From Alkalispirillum mobile (lineage in GTDB: Bacteria; Pseudomonadota; Gammaproteobacteria; Nitrococcales; Halorhodospiraceae), in the NCBI RefSeq assembly GCF_003664325.1, contig NZ_RCDA01000001.1, positions 1,116,001 through 1,180,000 on the forward strand: a DNA stretch of 64,000 bases, in the 5' to 3' direction. Of this stretch, positions 10,114-16,392 are shown in pieces. Below the pieces are notes generated by a model. The model saw only the letters and a program-made list of their open reading frames with translations. It was not told the DNA's origin and did not search any database. Every line of letters begins with the position of its first letter. The first letter of the stretch is position 1. A program made the position numbers and the translations under genes.

Positions 10114-12027
10114 TTGGCGCTGCTCCACCTGCACGACATCCACCTGGCCTTCGGCGGCCCGACCCTGCTGGACGGGGTCAGCCTGCAACTGGAACCGGGT
10201 GAGCGCATCGCGCTGCTCGGCCGCAACGGCTGCGGCAAGTCCTCGCTGCTGCGACTGCTGGCCGGCGAGCACATCCCCGACAGCGGCCGCATCGAGGGAC
10301 TGGACAAACTCAACGTGGCGCTGCTGCCCCAGGACATCCCCGAGCGCATGGCCGGCTCCGTCTACCACGTGGTGGCCGAAGGGCTGGGCGAGCTGGGTGA
10401 GTTGGTCGAGCGCTACCACCGCATCAGCGGCCAGGTGGCCACCGGCGACCCCGCCGCCATGGACAGCCTGGAACGGGTGCAGCACGAGCTGGAAAGCCGG
10501 GGCGGCTGGGCGCTGCACAACCGCGTCGAAGCCACCCTGAGCCGGCTGGGCCTGCCGGCGGACGCCCGCTTCGACGAGCTCTCCGGCGGTCTGCGCCGGC
10601 AGGTGCTGCTGGCCCGGGCACTGGTCCGCGAACCGGACCTGCTGTTGTTGGACGAGCCCACCAACCACCTGGACCTGGAGGCGATCAAACGGCTCGAGGA
10701 GGTGATCGCCACCACCGATGCCGCCGTGGTCTTCGTCACCCACGACCGCGCTTTCCTGCGCCGGGTGGCCACCCGCATCGTCGAGATCGACCGGGGGCAG
10801 GCCCACAGTTACCCGGGCGACTGGGACAATTACCTCCGCCGGCGCGACGAGAGGCTGAACGCCGAGGCGCAGGCCCAGGCGCGGCAGGACAAGCTGCTGG
10901 CACAGGAGGAGGCCTGGATTCGCCAGGGCATCAAGGCGCGGCGCACGCGCAACCAGGGCCGGGTCCGCGCCCTGCAGGCCTTGCGTGAGCAGCACGCTGC
11001 CCGCCGCACCACCCAGGGCACCAGCCGCCTGGACATCCAGTCGGCCGAGCAATCGGGCAAGCTGGTGGCCGAGGCCGAGCACGTGGGCTTCACGCTACCC
11101 GACGGCCGGGCGCTGATCCGCGACTTCTCCTCCACGGTGCTGCGCGGCGACCGCATCGGACTGGTGGGCCCCAACGGCGTGGGCAAGACCACGCTGCTCC
11201 GCCTGCTGCTAGGACGCATCCAGCCCACCGAGGGGCACATCCGCACCGGCACCCGGCTGGAGGTGGCCTGGTTCGACCAGCTGCGCGAGACGCTGGACGA
11301 CGACCGCAGCGTGGCGGACAACATCGCCGAGGGGCGCGAGTTCATCGAGGTGGGCGGCAAGCGCACCCACGTGCTGGGCTACCTGCAGGACTTCCTGTTC
11401 ACCCCCGACCGGGCGCGCAGCCCGGTGCGCAGCCTCTCCGGCGGTGAGCGGGCCAGGCTGCTGCTGGCCCGGCTGTTCACCCGTCCGGCCAACCTGCTGG
11501 TGCTGGACGAACCCACCAACGACCTGGACATGGAGACGCTGGAGCTGCTTGAGGATCGGTTGGCGGATTTCGACGGCACCGTGCTGCTGGTCAGCCACGA
11601 TCGCGAGTTCATGGATCAGGTGGTCACCAGCACCTGGGTGTTCGAGGGCGAGGGGCGCATCACCGAGCACGCCGGGGGCTACAGTGACTGGCTGCGCTAC
11701 CGTGCACAGCGCGATGCCGAACAGGCGCGGCAGGCCCGCGCTGCCACGGCCGCCGTCCGCCCCGACGGCGGGCGCCCAGCGGCCAGCAGCCGCCGGCCGG
11801 CCAAGCTGGGCTACAAGGCGCAGCGGGAACTGGCCAGCCTGCCGGAGACCATAGAACGGCTGGAGGCGCGGCAGGCCGAAGTGCAGCAACGGCTGGCCGA
11901 CCCCGCCATCTACCGGGACAGCCCGGATGACATCCCCCGACTCCAGGCCGAGCTGAACGAATTGGAGACGGAGCTGATGACCGCCTTCGAACGCTGGGAG
12001 GAACTGGAGGCCCAGCGCCAGGTCTGA
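10114..12027 (+). CDS. uup: ABC-F ATPase, Uup-like
   Basis: A 637-residue protein with two ATP-binding cassettes and no membrane domain. Walker A motifs are GRNGCGKSS (36-44) and GPNGVGKTT (about 350); signatures LSGGLRRQ and LSGGERAR; Walker B blocks LLLLDEPTNHLD and LVLDEPTNDLD. The last 80 residues are a helical, coiled-coil-like arm. ABC-F proteins bind the ribosome or nucleic acid; Uup affects transposon excision, replication intermediates and translation. The start is TTG at 10114, with GAGGACC upstream; the ATG at 10101 is out of frame and gives a three-codon peptide. Divergent from DUF3422; a small membrane protein gene follows at 85 bp. Confidence 0.93.
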   Translation: MALLHLHDIHLAFGGPTLLDGVSLQLEPGERIALLGRNGCGKSSLLRLLAGEHIPDSGRIEGLDKLNVALLPQDIPERMAGSVYHVVAEGLGELGELVERYHRISGQVATGDPAAMDSLERVQHELESRGGWALHNRVEATLSRLGLPADARFDELSGGLRRQVLLARALVREPDLLLLDEPTNHLDLEAIKRLEEVIATTDAAVVFVTHDRAFLRRVATRIVEIDRGQAHSYPGDWDNYLRRRDERLNAEAQAQARQDKLLAQEEAWIRQGIKARRTRNQGRVRALQALREQHAARRTTQGTSRLDIQSAEQSGKLVAEAEHVGFTLPDGRALIRDFSSTVLRGDRIGLVGPNGVGKTTLLRLLLGRIQPTEGHIRTGTRLEVAWFDQLRETLDDDRSVADNIAEGREFIEVGGKRTHVLGYLQDFLFTPDRARSPVRSLSGGERARLLLARLFTRPANLLVLDEPTNDLDMETLELLEDRLADFDGTVLLVSHDREFMDQVVTSTWVFEGEGRITEHAGGYSDWLRYRAQRDAEQARQARAATAAVRPDGGRPAASSRRPAKLGYKAQRELASLPETIERLEARQAEVQQRLADPAIYRDSPDDIPRLQAELNELETELMTAFERWEELEAQRQV

Positions 12028-12111
12028 CTCCACCAGGCCCGGCCGGCATTCTGCCTGCCGGGATATGGTGTTACATTGGTCGCCGGGTCGCCCGGCGAAA
12101 CCAGAGGTCGT

Positions 12112-12399
12112 ATGCAAACAGCAAATACCCCCGGCAACCTGATCGGCCGGGTCATCGGCGTGCTCGGCGCCATCGTGGTGATCGGCTTCACCGCCTTTCT
12201 GGGCATTTTTGTCTTCCTGGCCCTGCTCGGTGTGGCCGCCGTGGGGGCCGTGGTCTTTGCGGCACGCCTGTGGTGGCTGCGCCGCCAGCTGCGTCAGGCC
12301 GCAGAACGCGGCCGGGCGCGTCACCAGCAACAGCAGCCTCGCGGCGGTGGCAACATCATCGAAGGCGAGTACCGCCGGGACGAGGATCAGCGACCCTAG
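12112..12399 (+). CDS. Small membrane protein, unknown
   Basis: A 95-residue protein starting at the ATG at 12112, preceded by AGAGGTC. Residues about 10-52 are strongly hydrophobic with GG/AG patterns (one long or two close helices), followed by a basic, arginine- and glutamine-rich tail ending in EGEYRRDEDQRP. The charge pattern suggests a cytoplasmic C terminus. Not recognised as a named family. It lies between uup and the M23 peptidase gene (54-bp gap) on the same strand, so it may be transcribed with either. Confidence 0.65.
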   Translation: MQTANTPGNLIGRVIGVLGAIVVIGFTAFLGIFVFLALLGVAAVGAVVFAARLWWLRRQLRQAAERGRARHQQQQPRGGGNIIEGEYRRDEDQRP

Positions 12400-12453
12400 T
12401 CGCCGCCGGCGTCCTGCCCCGGGCACACCACAGAACAAAACGGGCGAAGGACT

Positions 12454-13413
12454 GTGAGGGATCGTTTCACCCTGACGATTACCGATTACCGGGGGTCCCG
12501 GCACTACTCACTGCACCAGCTGGTCAAGCGGGTGGCAATGGGGGTGGTCGGGGCTGTAGCCCTGGCGTTTCTGGTCGGCACGGCGCTCATCTGGTGGCTC
12601 AACCACAACCTGGCCGAACTGGCCGAACGGCGCGACCACGTCCAACGCGAGTACGAACACCTGCAGGAGCACAAGACCCGGGTGGTGCAGGCCATCGAGC
12701 GGCGCAACTCGGAACTGAGCCGGGTCATCGACGAACAGTCCGCAGAACTCAACCAGCTCGACCTGGAGCTGGGGCACATTGAGGCCATGGTGGGCCTGCG
12801 CCCGGAGCCGGAGCAGGAGCGCAGCCAGCGCCTGGACGTAGCCAGCCAGACCGCGCTTGAGCGCGCGCTGATGCTGCAACAACTCCCCAGCGGCCACCCG
12901 GTGGACGGCGACAGCCGGCTCACCAGCGGCTACGGCTGGCGCAAGCACCCGGTCACCGGCGAGCGCTCTTTCCATGGCGCGGCCGACTACGCGGCGGACC
13001 GGGGCACCGAGGTGGTGGCCACCGCCGACGGGGTGGTCAATTACGCCGCCCGCCACAACAGCGGTCTGGGCAAGCTGGTCATCGTCGACCACAACTTCTC
13101 CTTCAAGACCTACTACGCCCACCTGCACGAGATCCAGGTCCAGCAGGGCGAGTTCGTCCGCGAGGGCACCGTGATCGGCACGGTGGGTAGCACCGGGCAG
13201 GCCACCGGGCCGCACCTGCACTACGAGGTCTGGCACCTGCAACGCAAACTCAACCCGGAGCCGTTCGTCGCCTGGGATATCGATAACTACGAAGCACTGT
13301 TTGAAGAAGAGGGCCGGGTACAATGGGACTCCTTGGCAAAGGGAATAAAACGCAATCTAAGCCTTCAGGAACAACAGTTATCGCTGCGGGCACCGAGTTC
13401 TCCGGAGAACTGA
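12454..13413 (+). CDS. Membrane-anchored M23 (LytM-type) metallopeptidase
   Basis: A 319-residue protein with one N-terminal membrane helix (about 28-49), a coiled coil (about 52-112) and a C-terminal peptidase M23 domain (about 150-272). Zinc ligands are visible: His174 and Asp178 in FHGAADYAAD and the HLH pair His254/His256 in GPHLHYEVW. Such enzymes cut peptidoglycan cross-bridges in the periplasm, and in several bacteria an M23 peptidase works with a bactofilin, whose gene follows here and overlaps this one by 91 bp. The start is GTG at 12454 with GAAGG before it. The 30-residue tail after the peptidase domain is encoded in the overlap and is not part of the fold. Confidence 0.9.
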   Translation: MRDRFTLTITDYRGSRHYSLHQLVKRVAMGVVGAVALAFLVGTALIWWLNHNLAELAERRDHVQREYEHLQEHKTRVVQAIERRNSELSRVIDEQSAELNQLDLELGHIEAMVGLRPEPEQERSQRLDVASQTALERALMLQQLPSGHPVDGDSRLTSGYGWRKHPVTGERSFHGAADYAADRGTEVVATADGVVNYAARHNSGLGKLVIVDHNFSFKTYYAHLHEIQVQQGEFVREGTVIGTVGSTGQATGPHLHYEVWHLQRKLNPEPFVAWDIDNYEALFEEEGRVQWDSLAKGIKRNLSLQEQQLSLRAPSSPEN

Positions 13414-14027
13414 CCTGCGAATCGGCACTGCACCTGGACGGCACCGTACGCGGTACCATCCGGGCCCAAGGTGACGTATCCATCGGCGAGAGCGGCCGGC
13501 TGGAAGGGGGCATCCAGGCCGAACGGCTTGTGGTCAGCGGTCACCTGGAGGGTGACGTCGACTGCCACTCGCTGGAGATCGTCACCAACGGCAAGGTCTT
13601 CGGCGAGGTCTACAGCGATGCCTTTGTCATTGAGCCGGGTGGACTGTTCCGCGGTCAGAGCCACTCCCGGGACGAGGAGCGGCTGGCTCTGCCGGACCAG
13701 CAGGCGCAGGCCCTCGCAGCCGGGTCTGTCCAGGACCAGCCCGCCGTTAACGAGCCCACCGCCACTACCGACGACGAGGTGGATGCGGAGGAAGCGCCGG
13801 AGCCGGCGCCCGCCAAAGCGGAGGCAGACGATGCCACCACCGAAGAGGAACCGCTGCCGGAGGCGTCACAGCCCGAGGACGACACCCCCGCCGAGGAGGT
13901 AGAGACCGACCGGCCGCCCGCCGCAGCCCGGGACAACATGGCCGAAGCCCCGGGTCGCTCCGCGAGCAAGGACAACCAGGTGACACCGCAGCCCGCGCCC
14001 CACCAGACGGTCTGGGACCGGCGGTGA
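13323..14027 (+). CDS. Bactofilin (polymer-forming cytoskeletal protein)
   Basis: A 234-residue protein. Residues about 17-118 form the bactofilin beta-helix core, with repeated short strands such as LHLDGTVRGTIRA, GRLEGGIQAE and GHLEGDVDC. The N terminus is short and basic (MGLLGKGNKTQSK). The C-terminal half (about 122-234) is acidic and low in complexity (runs of E, D, A, P), much longer than the core needs, and probably disordered. Bactofilins polymerise without nucleotide and position cell-wall enzymes. The ATG lies 91 bp inside the upstream M23 gene, the classic partner. A gene for a ParM-type actin follows at 154 bp, which is unusual company. Confidence 0.92.
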   Translation: MGLLGKGNKTQSKPSGTTVIAAGTEFSGELTCESALHLDGTVRGTIRAQGDVSIGESGRLEGGIQAERLVVSGHLEGDVDCHSLEIVTNGKVFGEVYSDAFVIEPGGLFRGQSHSRDEERLALPDQQAQALAAGSVQDQPAVNEPTATTDDEVDAEEAPEPAPAKAEADDATTEEEPLPEASQPEDDTPAEEVETDRPPAAARDNMAEAPGRSASKDNQVTPQPAPHQTVWDRR

Positions 14028-14181
14028 AGACCCGGCGGACCGGTCATGGTGGCCGGCTGCCGGGCTGTGATAGCATCCGGCAATAACGTTAATGAATCAG
14101 TAGTCATCGGCGCGCCCGCCCGGCTTCATTGAGCCAGGCCGGGACGGCGACAGCAGACAGTCATCCAGGGGGGATCTGCCA

Positions 14182-15345
14182 GTGGAACGTTGCATCGGTC
14201 TGGACATGGGCTACGGCTTCATCAAATCAGATGACGGCCGGGAGGGGCACGTCTTCCCCAGCGTGGTCGGCGAGGGTTCCTCCGGGGCCCCCATGGCGCT
14301 GGGTTTCCGCCAGCCGCCGCCCACGGAGGACCTGCGGGTCACCGTAAACGGCAAGCACTACTTTTTGGGTGACCTGGCCATCCGCCACTCCCGGATCGCC
14401 CATCGCGGCCTCTCCCCCACCCGTTCCGAAGGCGACGACCTGCGCATCCTCTTTCTCGGCGCGCTCTCCATGTACTGCCGCGAGACCATGAACAACTTCT
14501 ACGTGGTCACCGGTCTGCCCCCGGGCCGCATGCACCTGGCGGACGACCTTACACGGCAGTTGCGCGGTGACCACGAGGTCATCCGCCAGACCGGCGGTCA
14601 GCGCTTCGGGGTGAGCATCCGCATCGACCGGATCGAGGTGGTGCCTCAGCCGGTGGGCACCTACTGGTCCGAGGTGCTCGACAACCGCGGGCAGCTGCGC
14701 GCGAGCAACCCGATGCTCAAGGGCCGTATCGGCATCATCGATATCGGCTTCCGCACCAGCGACCTGGCCACCATCGTGGACGGCGAGTATTCGCCGGCGT
14801 TCAGCCGCACCGTGCCCATCGGCATCTCCACCGGCTACGACACCATCTCCTCGTCGCTCAGCACCGAGTACGGCCTGGAGCGCGAGACCTACACGCTGGA
14901 CGACTCCATCATCTCCGGCTCCATCAATGTCTCCGGCCAGCCGGTGGACATCAGCGGGCTGCGCGACCAGGTGTTCGAGGAGCTGGCCACCAAGCTGCTG
15001 GTGGAGGTGCGCTCCCAGTGGCAACTCGCCGAGTACGATCACATCCTGATCACCGGCGGTGGCGGCCAGGTGCTGGAGAAATACCTGCGCCCGCGCATGT
15101 CCCAGGCCCTGCTGGTAAACGACCCGGTCACCGCCAACGCGCGGGGCTACTTCGCCTGGGCCTACCACAACACCCAGCAGGCCATGGCCAGCGAGGCACC
15201 GGCCCAGCAACCGACCGGTCAACAGCCGCAAACGCCGCCGCCGGCCGGCAGCGAGCAACAGCCGGTCGGCAGCAGCTACGGCAACCTGGACCAGTCGCCC
15301 GGTCAGCAGAGCACCCCCTACGGGGGCGGCGGCCAGGAGCGGTAA
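14182..15345 (+). CDS. ParM/StbA-type actin-like ATPase, chromosomal
   Basis: A 387-residue actin-like protein of the ParM/Alp group. Phosphate motif 1 is LDMGYGFIK (7-15), phosphate motif 2 DIGFRTSDL (187-195) and the adenosine motif TGGGGQ (291-296). Residues 331-387 are a glutamine/proline-rich tail that is probably disordered. ParM filaments move plasmids together with a ParR adaptor and a parC site; neither a ParR-like gene nor a parC-like repeat array is seen here, and the neighbours are bactofilin and an M23 peptidase, pointing to a cell-structure role instead. The start is GTG at 14182 after a GGGGGGATC ribosome binding site. A strong terminator follows the gene. The cellular role is unknown. 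Confidence 0.85.
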   Translation: MERCIGLDMGYGFIKSDDGREGHVFPSVVGEGSSGAPMALGFRQPPPTEDLRVTVNGKHYFLGDLAIRHSRIAHRGLSPTRSEGDDLRILFLGALSMYCRETMNNFYVVTGLPPGRMHLADDLTRQLRGDHEVIRQTGGQRFGVSIRIDRIEVVPQPVGTYWSEVLDNRGQLRASNPMLKGRIGIIDIGFRTSDLATIVDGEYSPAFSRTVPIGISTGYDTISSSLSTEYGLERETYTLDDSIISGSINVSGQPVDISGLRDQVFEELATKLLVEVRSQWQLAEYDHILITGGGGQVLEKYLRPRMSQALLVNDPVTANARGYFAWAYHNTQQAMASEAPAQQPTGQQPQTPPPAGSEQQPVGSSYGNLDQSPGQQSTPYGGGGQER

Positions 15346-15370
15346 ACGCCGCTGCTCGCCGGCACACGAA

Positions 15371-15403
15371 CCCGGCAGGCCTGTGGGGCCTGCCGGGTTT
15401 TTT
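15371..15403 (+). terminator. Rho-independent terminator after the ParM-like gene
   Basis: A perfect 10-bp GC stem (15371-15380 with 15388-15397), 7-nt loop and six T residues (15398-15403). It closes the M23-bactofilin-actin cluster and separates it from the convergent RRM gene. Confidence 0.9.
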
Positions 15404-15419
15404 GTGCCCGGCCGGGCGG

Positions 15420-15725
15420 TCAAAGCGATCGGTGAACCACCCGTCGGCGCAGGCGCAGGGCGCGCGGCCCCCGGGGCTGCTTCTCGTGGGCCGGGTTCAC
15501 CCGCAGGGCGCGCCCCCGGTAATGGCGCCCATCCAGCGCGGCAATAGCCTCCCGGGCCGCCTCCGGGTCCATCTCCACAAAGGCGAACCCCCTGGGCTCA
15601 CCGCTGCTGCGATCCAGCACCAGGCGCGCGGACCAGACCCGACCAAAGGGCTGGAATAGCGTCTGCAGTGCCTGTTCGTCACAGTCCGTGGGCAGGTTGC
15701 CCACGTAGATCTGCTGCCTTGTCAT
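15420..15725 (-). CDS. Small RRM-domain RNA-binding protein
   Basis: A 101-residue protein made of a single RNA recognition motif (RNP2 IYVGNL at 6-11; RNP1 RGFAFVEM at about 45-52) plus a basic tail rich in arginine (RGPRALRLRRR). This is the bacterial glycine-poor Rbp type, implicated in RNA binding and cold response in other bacteria. The start is the ATG at 15725; the frame upstream to 15836 crosses the shared promoter region. Divergent from the phasin gene with a 133-bp gap that contains a duplicated repeat, so the two could share regulation. Confidence 0.85.
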   Translation of the reverse strand: MTRQQIYVGNLPTDCDEQALQTLFQPFGRVWSARLVLDRSSGEPRGFAFVEMDPEAAREAIAALDGRHYRGRALRVNPAHEKQPRGPRALRLRRRVVHRSL

Positions 15726-15786
15726 GGTGGCATCCTCTCCCGTCCGGCATGGCCTACCCAAGCAGTATAGAAGGCTTTTTGGCGCT

Positions 15787-15826
15787 TGTTGCAACGCACC
15801 AAAACGCGTGCTATGTTGCAACGCAC
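15787..15826. repeat. Pair of identical 13-bp repeats at the phasin promoter
   Basis: TGTTGCAACGCAC occurs at 15787-15799 and again at 15814-15826, 27 bp apart. Each copy contains the perfect palindrome GTTGCAAC, so each can be a dimer site. The first covers the -35 and the second the end of the -10 and the start point of the predicted phasin promoter. This looks like an operator pair for a repressor; PhaR, the PHA-responsive repressor of phasin genes, is the natural candidate but its gene is not in the window. Confidence 0.65.
15789..15817 (+). promoter_or_regulatory. Predicted phasin promoter
   Basis: TTGCAA (15789-15794) and TATGTT (15812-15817) with 17-bp spacing, 42 bp before the phasin start codon. 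Both boxes are imperfect (four of six each), but both lie inside the repeated GTTGCAAC elements, which supports a repressed promoter. Confidence 0.5.
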
Positions 15827-15858
15827 AAGCTATCAATCATGCCTTTGGAGGTATCACC

Positions 15859-16392
15859 ATGTACGAACAGATCAACGAACAGATGCAGTCTCAGATCGAG
15901 ACCGTCCGCAAGCAGCTGGAGAGCCAGGGCGAGCCCATGCGCCGCATGTTCAGCCTGATGCTGGACGGTGTCGAGCAGTACAGCCAGCTGCAGCTGGACA
16001 TCGCCCGCTCCTGGTCCGAGCTGACCTTCAACCAGGCGCGCCAGATCCTGGAAATCAGCGATCAGGCCAGTCTCCAGAACTACCTGGAGAGCCAGAAGGC
16101 CCTGGCGGAGCAGTGCAACCGCAAGATCAACGAGGACGCCAACAAGCTGGCCGACCTGGGCCGCGATTTTGGCGAGCAGGTGAGCAAGCTGGCCACCGAG
16201 ACCGGCGTGCCGCTGACCGTCATCCCGGGCACCAGCAGCAGCGCTGACTCGACCAAAAAGAGCACCGGCAGCAGCTCTACCACCAGCAAGAGCACCAGCG
16301 GTGCCAGCAGCAGCCGTCGCAGCAGCTCCAGCACGGCCGGCAGCAGCAGCAAGACCAGCAGCCGCTCCAGCTCCAGCAGCAAGTCCGCGTAA
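15859..16392 (+). CDS. Phasin family protein
   Basis: A 177-residue phasin. Residues about 1-125 are amphipathic helix and match the phasin domain (LMLDGVEQYSQLQLDIARSW is typical), which coats polyhydroxyalkanoate granules. The last 50 residues are almost only serine, threonine, lysine and glycine, encoded largely by AGC/ACC codons, a low-complexity tail longer than usual. The start at 15859 has a strong TGGAGG ribosome binding site; the open frame upstream crosses the promoter. Its presence implies PHA storage, though no pha synthase genes lie in the window. A bidirectional terminator separates it from purD. Confidence 0.9.
   Translation: MYEQINEQMQSQIETVRKQLESQGEPMRRMFSLMLDGVEQYSQLQLDIARSWSELTFNQARQILEISDQASLQNYLESQKALAEQCNRKINEDANKLADLGRDFGEQVSKLATETGVPLTVIPGTSSSADSTKKSTGSSSTTSKSTSGASSSRRSSSSTAGSSSKTSSRSSSSSKSA

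Follow-up and report, generated by a model that had tools for sequence, protein, structure and literature searches.

A ParM-type actin gene recurs beside bactofilin genes in gammaproteobacteria and Bacillota

Bactofilins are widespread shape determinants which the literature, in the extracts of the papers cited here and throughout, ties to M23 peptidases and to ParA-type partition but not to actin. In the BacA-LmdC system of Hyphomonas neptunium, R. rubrum and others, an M23 peptidase contacts bactofilin via its N-terminus (H. neptunium), with LmdC using a cytoplasmic N-terminus, and adjacency of the two genes was counted in 226 species (PMC10945521). Bactofilins bind membranes via a short N-terminal peptide (PMC12448750), and in Myxococcus the BacNOP filaments hold ParA and ParB and organise ParABS (PMC9178275). 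Chromosomal ParMs with ParR exist, cassettes apparently lacking ParR are also listed (PMC12270681), and the cyanobacterial FcmB, chromosomal and of ParM descent, is needed for rod shape (PMC12645912). Here we describe a locus in a 64,000-nucleotide stretch of Alkalispirillum mobile DNA (contig NZ_RCDA01000001.1, positions 1,116,001 to 1,180,000; the whole stretch is called the window), in which a ParM/Alp-type actin gene follows a bactofilin gene that itself overlaps an M23 peptidase gene (Table 1). The actin belongs to a clade, spread over two phyla, most of whose members have a bactofilin gene as neighbour. An earlier note, made from the letters of the window, had read the three genes as one run with a chromosomal actin, and this is borne out by Pfam matches and by the contig of 1.75 Mb (G000:C1, in a genome of 2.95 Mb), a chromosomal replicon.

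The two upstream genes are of the BacA-LmdC type, and the earlier note was right to call bactofilin with M23 a known pair. The bactofilin ATG sits 91 nt within the 3′ end of the M23 gene, compared with an overlap of 17 bp in H. neptunium, and the peptidases have in common a short N-terminal cytoplasmic region, one membrane helix and a C-terminal M23 domain (PMC10945521). The difference lies in the third gene, since the extracts of that paper name no ParM-type actin as a partner and mention actin as MreB or in reference titles. Among the chains compared, the solved fold closest to the actin model is Dh-cParM1 of the cParMR system (8x1i; Z 34.4; 24% identity over 333 residues), followed by the cyanobacterial ParM-type CorM (9rmi; Z 31.5), whose sequence match is weak (chain E 9e-9), and by pCBH ParM (Z ~30). 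The cParMs are likewise chromosomal and conserved in a genus, with some cassettes apparently without ParR; their loci are read for a ParR beside the actin (PMC12270681), whereas the window's actin has a bactofilin there and no ParR was seen. The role of FcmB in rod shape is a precedent for the recruitment of ParM-type actins to shape, but the FcmB model (NF052678) matches the window's actin weakly (33.9 bits, below the cut-off of 300) and the gene beside fcmB is fcmC (PMC12645912). In the Myxococcus BacNOP-PadC-ParABS system bactofilin is similarly a scaffold for a partition ATPase, which is however ParA-type and not an actin (PMC9178275). Neither the cParM nor the FcmB paper uses the word bactofilin in its main text, and in the open-licence literature no title or abstract opening joins bactofilin to a ParM-type actin, although 13 papers contain both terms. 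Each component is already known, as are the M23-bactofilin pair, chromosomal ParMs and a shape-determining ParM-type actin; the bactofilin-actin pair looks new.

Relatives of the actin were collected with a pattern scan, not a census, in which two peptide patterns were run over 84,980 species genomes and 80 of 166 relatives, with 79 loci, were kept. When 274 genomes were drawn evenly from the window's class, its own genome among them, eight others matched, at 35% identity or less. In three Bacillota-type metagenome-assembled genomes (MAGs; G325, G326 and G327), which encode actins of 46-56% identity, bactofilin lies directly after the actin. In the class of G325 some actin match was present in 54 of 154 genomes and one of at least 42% identity in 15; with G326 these make 16 members labelled Bacillota, all but the three named MAGs being assigned via the class of G325, and in 15 of the 16 bactofilin is the next downstream gene on the same strand. 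Over the whole clade a same-strand bactofilin neighbour accompanies 31 of 38 actins (30 of 37 fetched loci, and the window), each of the 30 being a PF04519 match over the cut-off at the same place. In gammaproteobacteria the bactofilin gene comes before the actin gene, and in Bacillota it comes after. Other flanking genes differ between the lineages, as judged from lists made in part by a longest-open-reading-frame rule that misfires in GC-rich DNA, and rough and incomplete for Bacillota. A bactofilin is present in every one of the 37 clade genomes searched. If a genome has 2 bactofilins among 2500 genes, direct neighbourhood would be expected by chance at roughly 0.2% of loci. Outside the clade a bactofilin was found within 1.5 kb in 2 of 78 actin loci, 62 of which have at least 1 kb on both sides; loci reached twice were counted once, and the 78 leave out five distant Bacillota actins (L193-L197). 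The two positives, L220 and L221, are the clade's nearest relatives (support 92/88), and in both a divergent M23-bactofilin pair adjoins the actin. In two more loci outside the clade, L217 and L219, an M23-bactofilin pair lies 5-8 kb away from the actin.

Most Bacillota carriers of the clade actin have an extra bactofilin. Within the class of G325, a bactofilin over the cut-off is present in 84 of the 154 genomes; by hand count, at least two occur in 12 of the 15 carriers versus 4 of the 139 other genomes (Fisher p 3e-12, ignoring kinship). One copy adjoins the actin in all 12 of these carriers. The exceptions are G327 and G463, with one bactofilin each, and G459, whose second match falls under the cut-off. 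One of the four multi-bactofilin genomes among the non-carriers, G398, has a more distant actin (30% identity; L196; L231:2928-4581) immediately followed by a bactofilin, which lies outside the loci used for the trees and may be another independent pairing; the four other distant actins examined alongside it have no directly following bactofilin.

In a careful actin tree of 69 of 117 rows, the 22 gammaproteobacterial and 16 Bacillota sequences form one clade (100/100). The gammaproteobacterial actins branch from among the Bacillota ones, and a single Bacillota clade is not rejected (approximately unbiased (AU) test, p 0.127). Placing the linked bactofilins in one clade is rejected (AU p 5.2e-5; 37 of 54 rows, 26 of them linked) in a test that omitted 17 long or second-copy rows, including the linked L207, L212, L222 (twice) and L223, and that never contained L198, whose domain hit is split. 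The gammaproteobacterial linked bactofilins group (100/100) with seven actin-less bactofilins of the same order, four of them with an adjacent M23. Identity to the window's bactofilin is 50-58% for the actin-less ones of the order and 26-31% for the Bacillota ones. Since the linked bactofilins are not one clade, one actin clade seems to have been paired with at least two bactofilin lineages, and the simplest reading of the trees is that on more than one occasion it came to lie next to a resident bactofilin.

Within the order of A. mobile a strong actin match, at 65-71% identity, was found in 17 of 58 relatives, comprising 9 of 11 in the window's own family (f1) and 8 of 14 in a second family (f2); a raw tally of 20 of 59 includes the window's own genome and two weak matches. 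Actin identity is maintained at 62-71% across the two families. Whether the gene was an oddity of this strain had been set beforehand as a test, and it is not: all nine actin-bearing f1 relatives keep the order M23-bactofilin-actin-phasin, with M23 and bactofilin directly adjacent, and the pair recurs in Bacillota. The remaining two f1 genomes (83% and 77% complete) show neither actin nor bactofilin. Halorhodospira neutriphila DSM 15116 and H. abdelmalekii DSM 2110 have all three genes in their named records, and in that of Aquisalimonas lutea CECT 8326 bactofilin and actin lie side by side. In five of the eight actin-bearing f2 genomes the bactofilin lies directly before the actin, without an M23 gene there, in a locus that we read as gldG-DUF4340-(bactofilin)-actin; in G031 and G037, two f2 genomes without the actin, the bactofilin still adjoins DUF4340, as in other f2 loci. 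This gldG-DUF4340 set, by our reading an ATP-binding cassette transporter, adjoins the actin locus in seven of the eight f2 loci (L031-L038), with a GreB-like gene on the other side in six.

A full-length LmdC-type M23 (49-51% identity) is encoded elsewhere in the genome in exactly the five f2 genomes with bactofilin-actin, and the other seven actin-bearing gammaproteobacteria outside f1 have partial, domain-level M23 matches only. This distribution in f1 and f2 indicates that this bactofilin type and LmdC-type M23 come and go together, with the actin a separable partner. Whether the three genes stay together in relatives had also been put as a check, and they do so in the actin-bearing f1 genomes; M23 lies outside the conserved core, and no M23 peptidase match was found among the loci fetched for the 16 Bacillota members. 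We accordingly rejected the M23-bactofilin-actin triple as a unit, M23 being absent from the f2 neighbourhoods too. A correlation with spiral cell shape was also dropped, because many relatives in the order have M23-bactofilin sets without actin.

By its nucleotide motifs, ALP_N domain and fold, the window protein is a member of the ParM/Alp actin superfamily. An alignment of 20 sequences shows no variation at residues D8, G10, G12 and K15, at D187, G189, T192 and D194, or at G292-G294, which agrees with the motifs that the earlier note had placed at 7-15, 187-195 and 291-296. The best NCBIfam match is the plasmid segregation protein ParM equivalog NF010498 (80.6 bits, below its cut-off of 417), MreB_Mbl (PF06723) gave no match at E 0.01, and the solved relatives closest by sequence are Dh-cParM1 and pCBH ParM. 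Structure searches (Foldseek, VIA) were made with the actin, and in an AlphaFold2 model (mean predicted local distance difference test score (pLDDT) 79.5) residues ~1-336 have the actin fold. The ParM-like sequence matches and the fold alignments together make this a ParM/Alp-type actin and not MreB. It is the sole match to itself in its own genome, which carries a separate MreB (491 bits) and ParB, so that neither elongation nor chromosome partition has to rely on this actin. Neither the actin nor the bactofilin had a PADLOC match at E 0.01, and a role in defence was set aside. Clade-specific residues, among them R75, S78, E83, D86, P114, R116-H118, W162, I244 and W326, are candidate contacts; we claim no contact surface because residues 76-83 are of low confidence in the model.

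Low-complexity C-terminal tails had been noted on both filament proteins, and they are real, but that of the actin is not part of the core and is short in Bacillota. The actin tail has 55 residues rich in Q/P/G/S, and the model has pLDDT below 50 at 341-351 and 353-387, mostly predicted to be disordered. Tails of 38-63 residues occur in 14 gammaproteobacterial loci (L022-L035), with 48 in L037 and 26-34 in L036, L038 and L223-L226 (of which L223 has a bactofilin neighbour), a contrast that is confounded by kinship. In Bacillota members with an adjacent bactofilin, 6-29 residues follow the conserved Trp of the actin in 14 of 15 (the 15th is unscored), and the tail was therefore rejected as a general bactofilin contact.

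The bactofilin scores 89.4 bits against a PF04519 cut-off of 27.9 and is the only such match in the genome. Its tail of 119 residues is rich in A/E/P/D, and by eye its N-terminal MGLLGKGNK resembles the membrane-targeting peptide of bactofilins. The H...D and HLH residues, which we take to be metal-site motifs, are present in the M23 peptidase, and its N-terminal segment is conserved in the gammaproteobacterial rows of an alignment of nine f1 relatives, four actin-less relatives from the order and four Bacillota M23s. As had been noted, nothing resembling ParR or parC accompanies the actin. None of the neighbours tested (small membrane protein, bactofilin, RNA recognition motif (RRM) protein, phasin) is ParR-like, the gaps by the actin, at 154 nt and 74 nt, are too short to hide a ParR gene, and the repeats in 11900-16000 are two-copy only, with no parC-like array.

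A functional pairing of actin and bactofilin is the safer part of our interpretation, and we consider it likely. The whole mechanism, in which a ParM-type actin was recruited to a membrane-bound bactofilin scaffold and, in the family of the window, a wall hydrolase was added, is on balance the account that we favour, with reservations. The actin would have left plasmid partition to become a bactofilin partner; bactofilin, a membrane-bound, non-polar and nucleotide-independent polymer, would be the scaffold on which a dynamic, ATP-driven actin filament is anchored and positioned, taking the role that ParR-parC has for plasmid ParM. In the model the actin chain opens directly with the first strand, and so the protein seems to have no membrane anchor of its own. 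In the window's family the same bactofilin would be coupled to LmdC-type M23, giving local peptidoglycan cutting, cell shape or polarity as output, and the three proteins would form a wall-remodelling unit; in Bacillota the pair may serve another output. We infer in this the actin-bactofilin contact, polymerisation of the actin, bactofilin as its anchor and an output in wall growth or shape. The combined two-filament and wall-hydrolase machine of the earlier note is plausible by genome context, less the M23 as a member of the conserved core. We see an even chance that this is a distinct actin family with bactofilin as a dedicated partner replacing ParR, forming a two-polymer cytoskeleton that arose on at least two occasions, with different bactofilins, in the gammaproteobacteria and the Bacillota. 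An actin found repeatedly beside bactofilin would link the two filament classes. It would also be another ParM-type actin, after FcmB, that has taken on a role in cell biology, and genes now named by annotation pipelines for no more than their likeness to ParM would gain a function open to test.

A number of observations weigh against this interpretation. A bactofilin neighbour is missing in six of the 22 gammaproteobacterial actins and in one of the 16 from Bacillota (L036, L037, L038, L224, L225, L226 and L208). The 14 f2 genomes comprise five with both genes, three with the actin only, two with this bactofilin type only and four with neither, so the coupling is not obligate. The adjacency label needs only five changes on the actin tree, many actin rows are near copies, the Fisher tests take no account of kinship, and the bactofilin trees rest on 98 columns, with five linked rows outside the AU test. 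The long actin tail is confined to part of the gammaproteobacteria. M23 adjoins bactofilin-actin only in the window's family (the window and nine f1 relatives), and M23-bactofilin sets occur without actin in other members of the order, six genomes of genus g10 among them, so that function does not need the actin. Moreover, with ParR-less chromosomal ParMs already in print (PMC12270681), a missing ParR alone proves nothing. The few independent events, the 7 of 38 actins without the neighbour and the f2 loci with one gene of the two would also suit a neighbourhood without contact, in which a shared operon reflects simultaneous need or an inherited old locus and there is no joint filament. Between the two phyla the gene order is reversed, the flanks differ and the bactofilins are of different descent, all of which speaks against this, as do the extra bactofilin in carriers and the very low chance of adjacency per locus, and we think it improbable.

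Slightly less improbable, but still unlikely in our judgement, is that the pair positions or segregates a cargo such as DNA, an organelle or a polar complex, with bactofilin as landmark and actin as motor, much as BacNOP works with ParABS in Myxococcus. The kin of ParM are DNA movers, bactofilin filaments do hold ParA and ParB (PMC9178275), and with no M23 match in the fetched Bacillota loci wall cutting need not be the output. The lack of a ParR-like gene or parC-like repeats by the actin, the ParB elsewhere in the genome and the tie of bactofilin to a wall hydrolase in the window's family count the other way. The actin could finally be a stranded plasmid partition protein that still serves a plasmid via a remote ParR. 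Its fold and sequence are ParM-like and chromosomal ParMs with ParR exist (PMC12270681); yet it is a single copy on a 1.75 Mb contig, with 62-71% identity through two families and the same gene neighbours in nine relatives, and we regard this as very improbable indeed. Plasmids were also rejected as its recent source, the best-ranked plasmid matches having ~30% identity (1593 records), and so were phages, for which the best-ranked matches have 28% (44 records) and one viral contig 32%.

The features of the locus are collected in Table 1. A pattern scan of the region found no sigma-70-like promoter, and the hairpin after the actin gene is absent from the listing of that scan, though its folding score is strong.

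Table 1 Features of the M23-bactofilin-actin locus, in window coordinates
Feature	Position	Strand	Remarks
Small hydrophobic protein, upstream of M23	12076..12399	+	107 aa; same place in 8 of 9 f1 relatives (contig of the ninth ends there)
LmdC-type M23 peptidase	12454..13413	+	319 aa; PF01551 E 4.9e-31
M23 layout			N-terminal segment (RDRFTLTITDYRGSRHYSLHQ); then a hydrophobic segment; by eye, a coiled-coil-like stretch; M23 domain at the C-terminus, containing H...D and HLH
Bactofilin	13323..14027	+	234 aa; domain residues 18-113; PF04519 E 1.9e-25
Gap between bactofilin and actin	14028..14181	+	154 nt; without parC-like repeat array
Chromosomal ParM/Alp-type actin, bactofilin-linked clade	14182..15345	+	387 aa; ALP_N PF17989 E 1.6e-34; MreB-like_C PF21522 E 2e-14
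Hairpin and T-run, likely terminator of the run	15371..15403	+	fold -33.4 kcal/mol, z -6.4

Between the actin and phasin genes of the window lies a gene for an RRM RNA-binding protein (15423-15725, - strand). An RRM match is present at that site in none of the nine f1 relatives, where the next match after the actin is the phasin.

Many chromosomal ParM-type actins of 27-36% identity (L110-L166) were met mostly in MAGs of Desulfuromonadales, Desulfobacterales and Mariprofundaceae type, with no bactofilin match in their fetched loci. Two of these loci, L122 and L127 from Bacillota MAGs, have a window-type M23 (E about 1e-73) ~2 kb from the distant actin, on the opposite strand and without bactofilin. 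In the Bacillota class, G341 has three tandem ParM-type actin genes (L215:13-3597) with 32-38% identity to that of the window. Directly upstream of the actin-bactofilin pair of L222 (208-4890) is a signalling protein of 1560 aa, in which Pfam places Pkinase, AAA_16, GAF and LuxR-type GerE domains; a similar long protein lies just upstream of the actin in L211.

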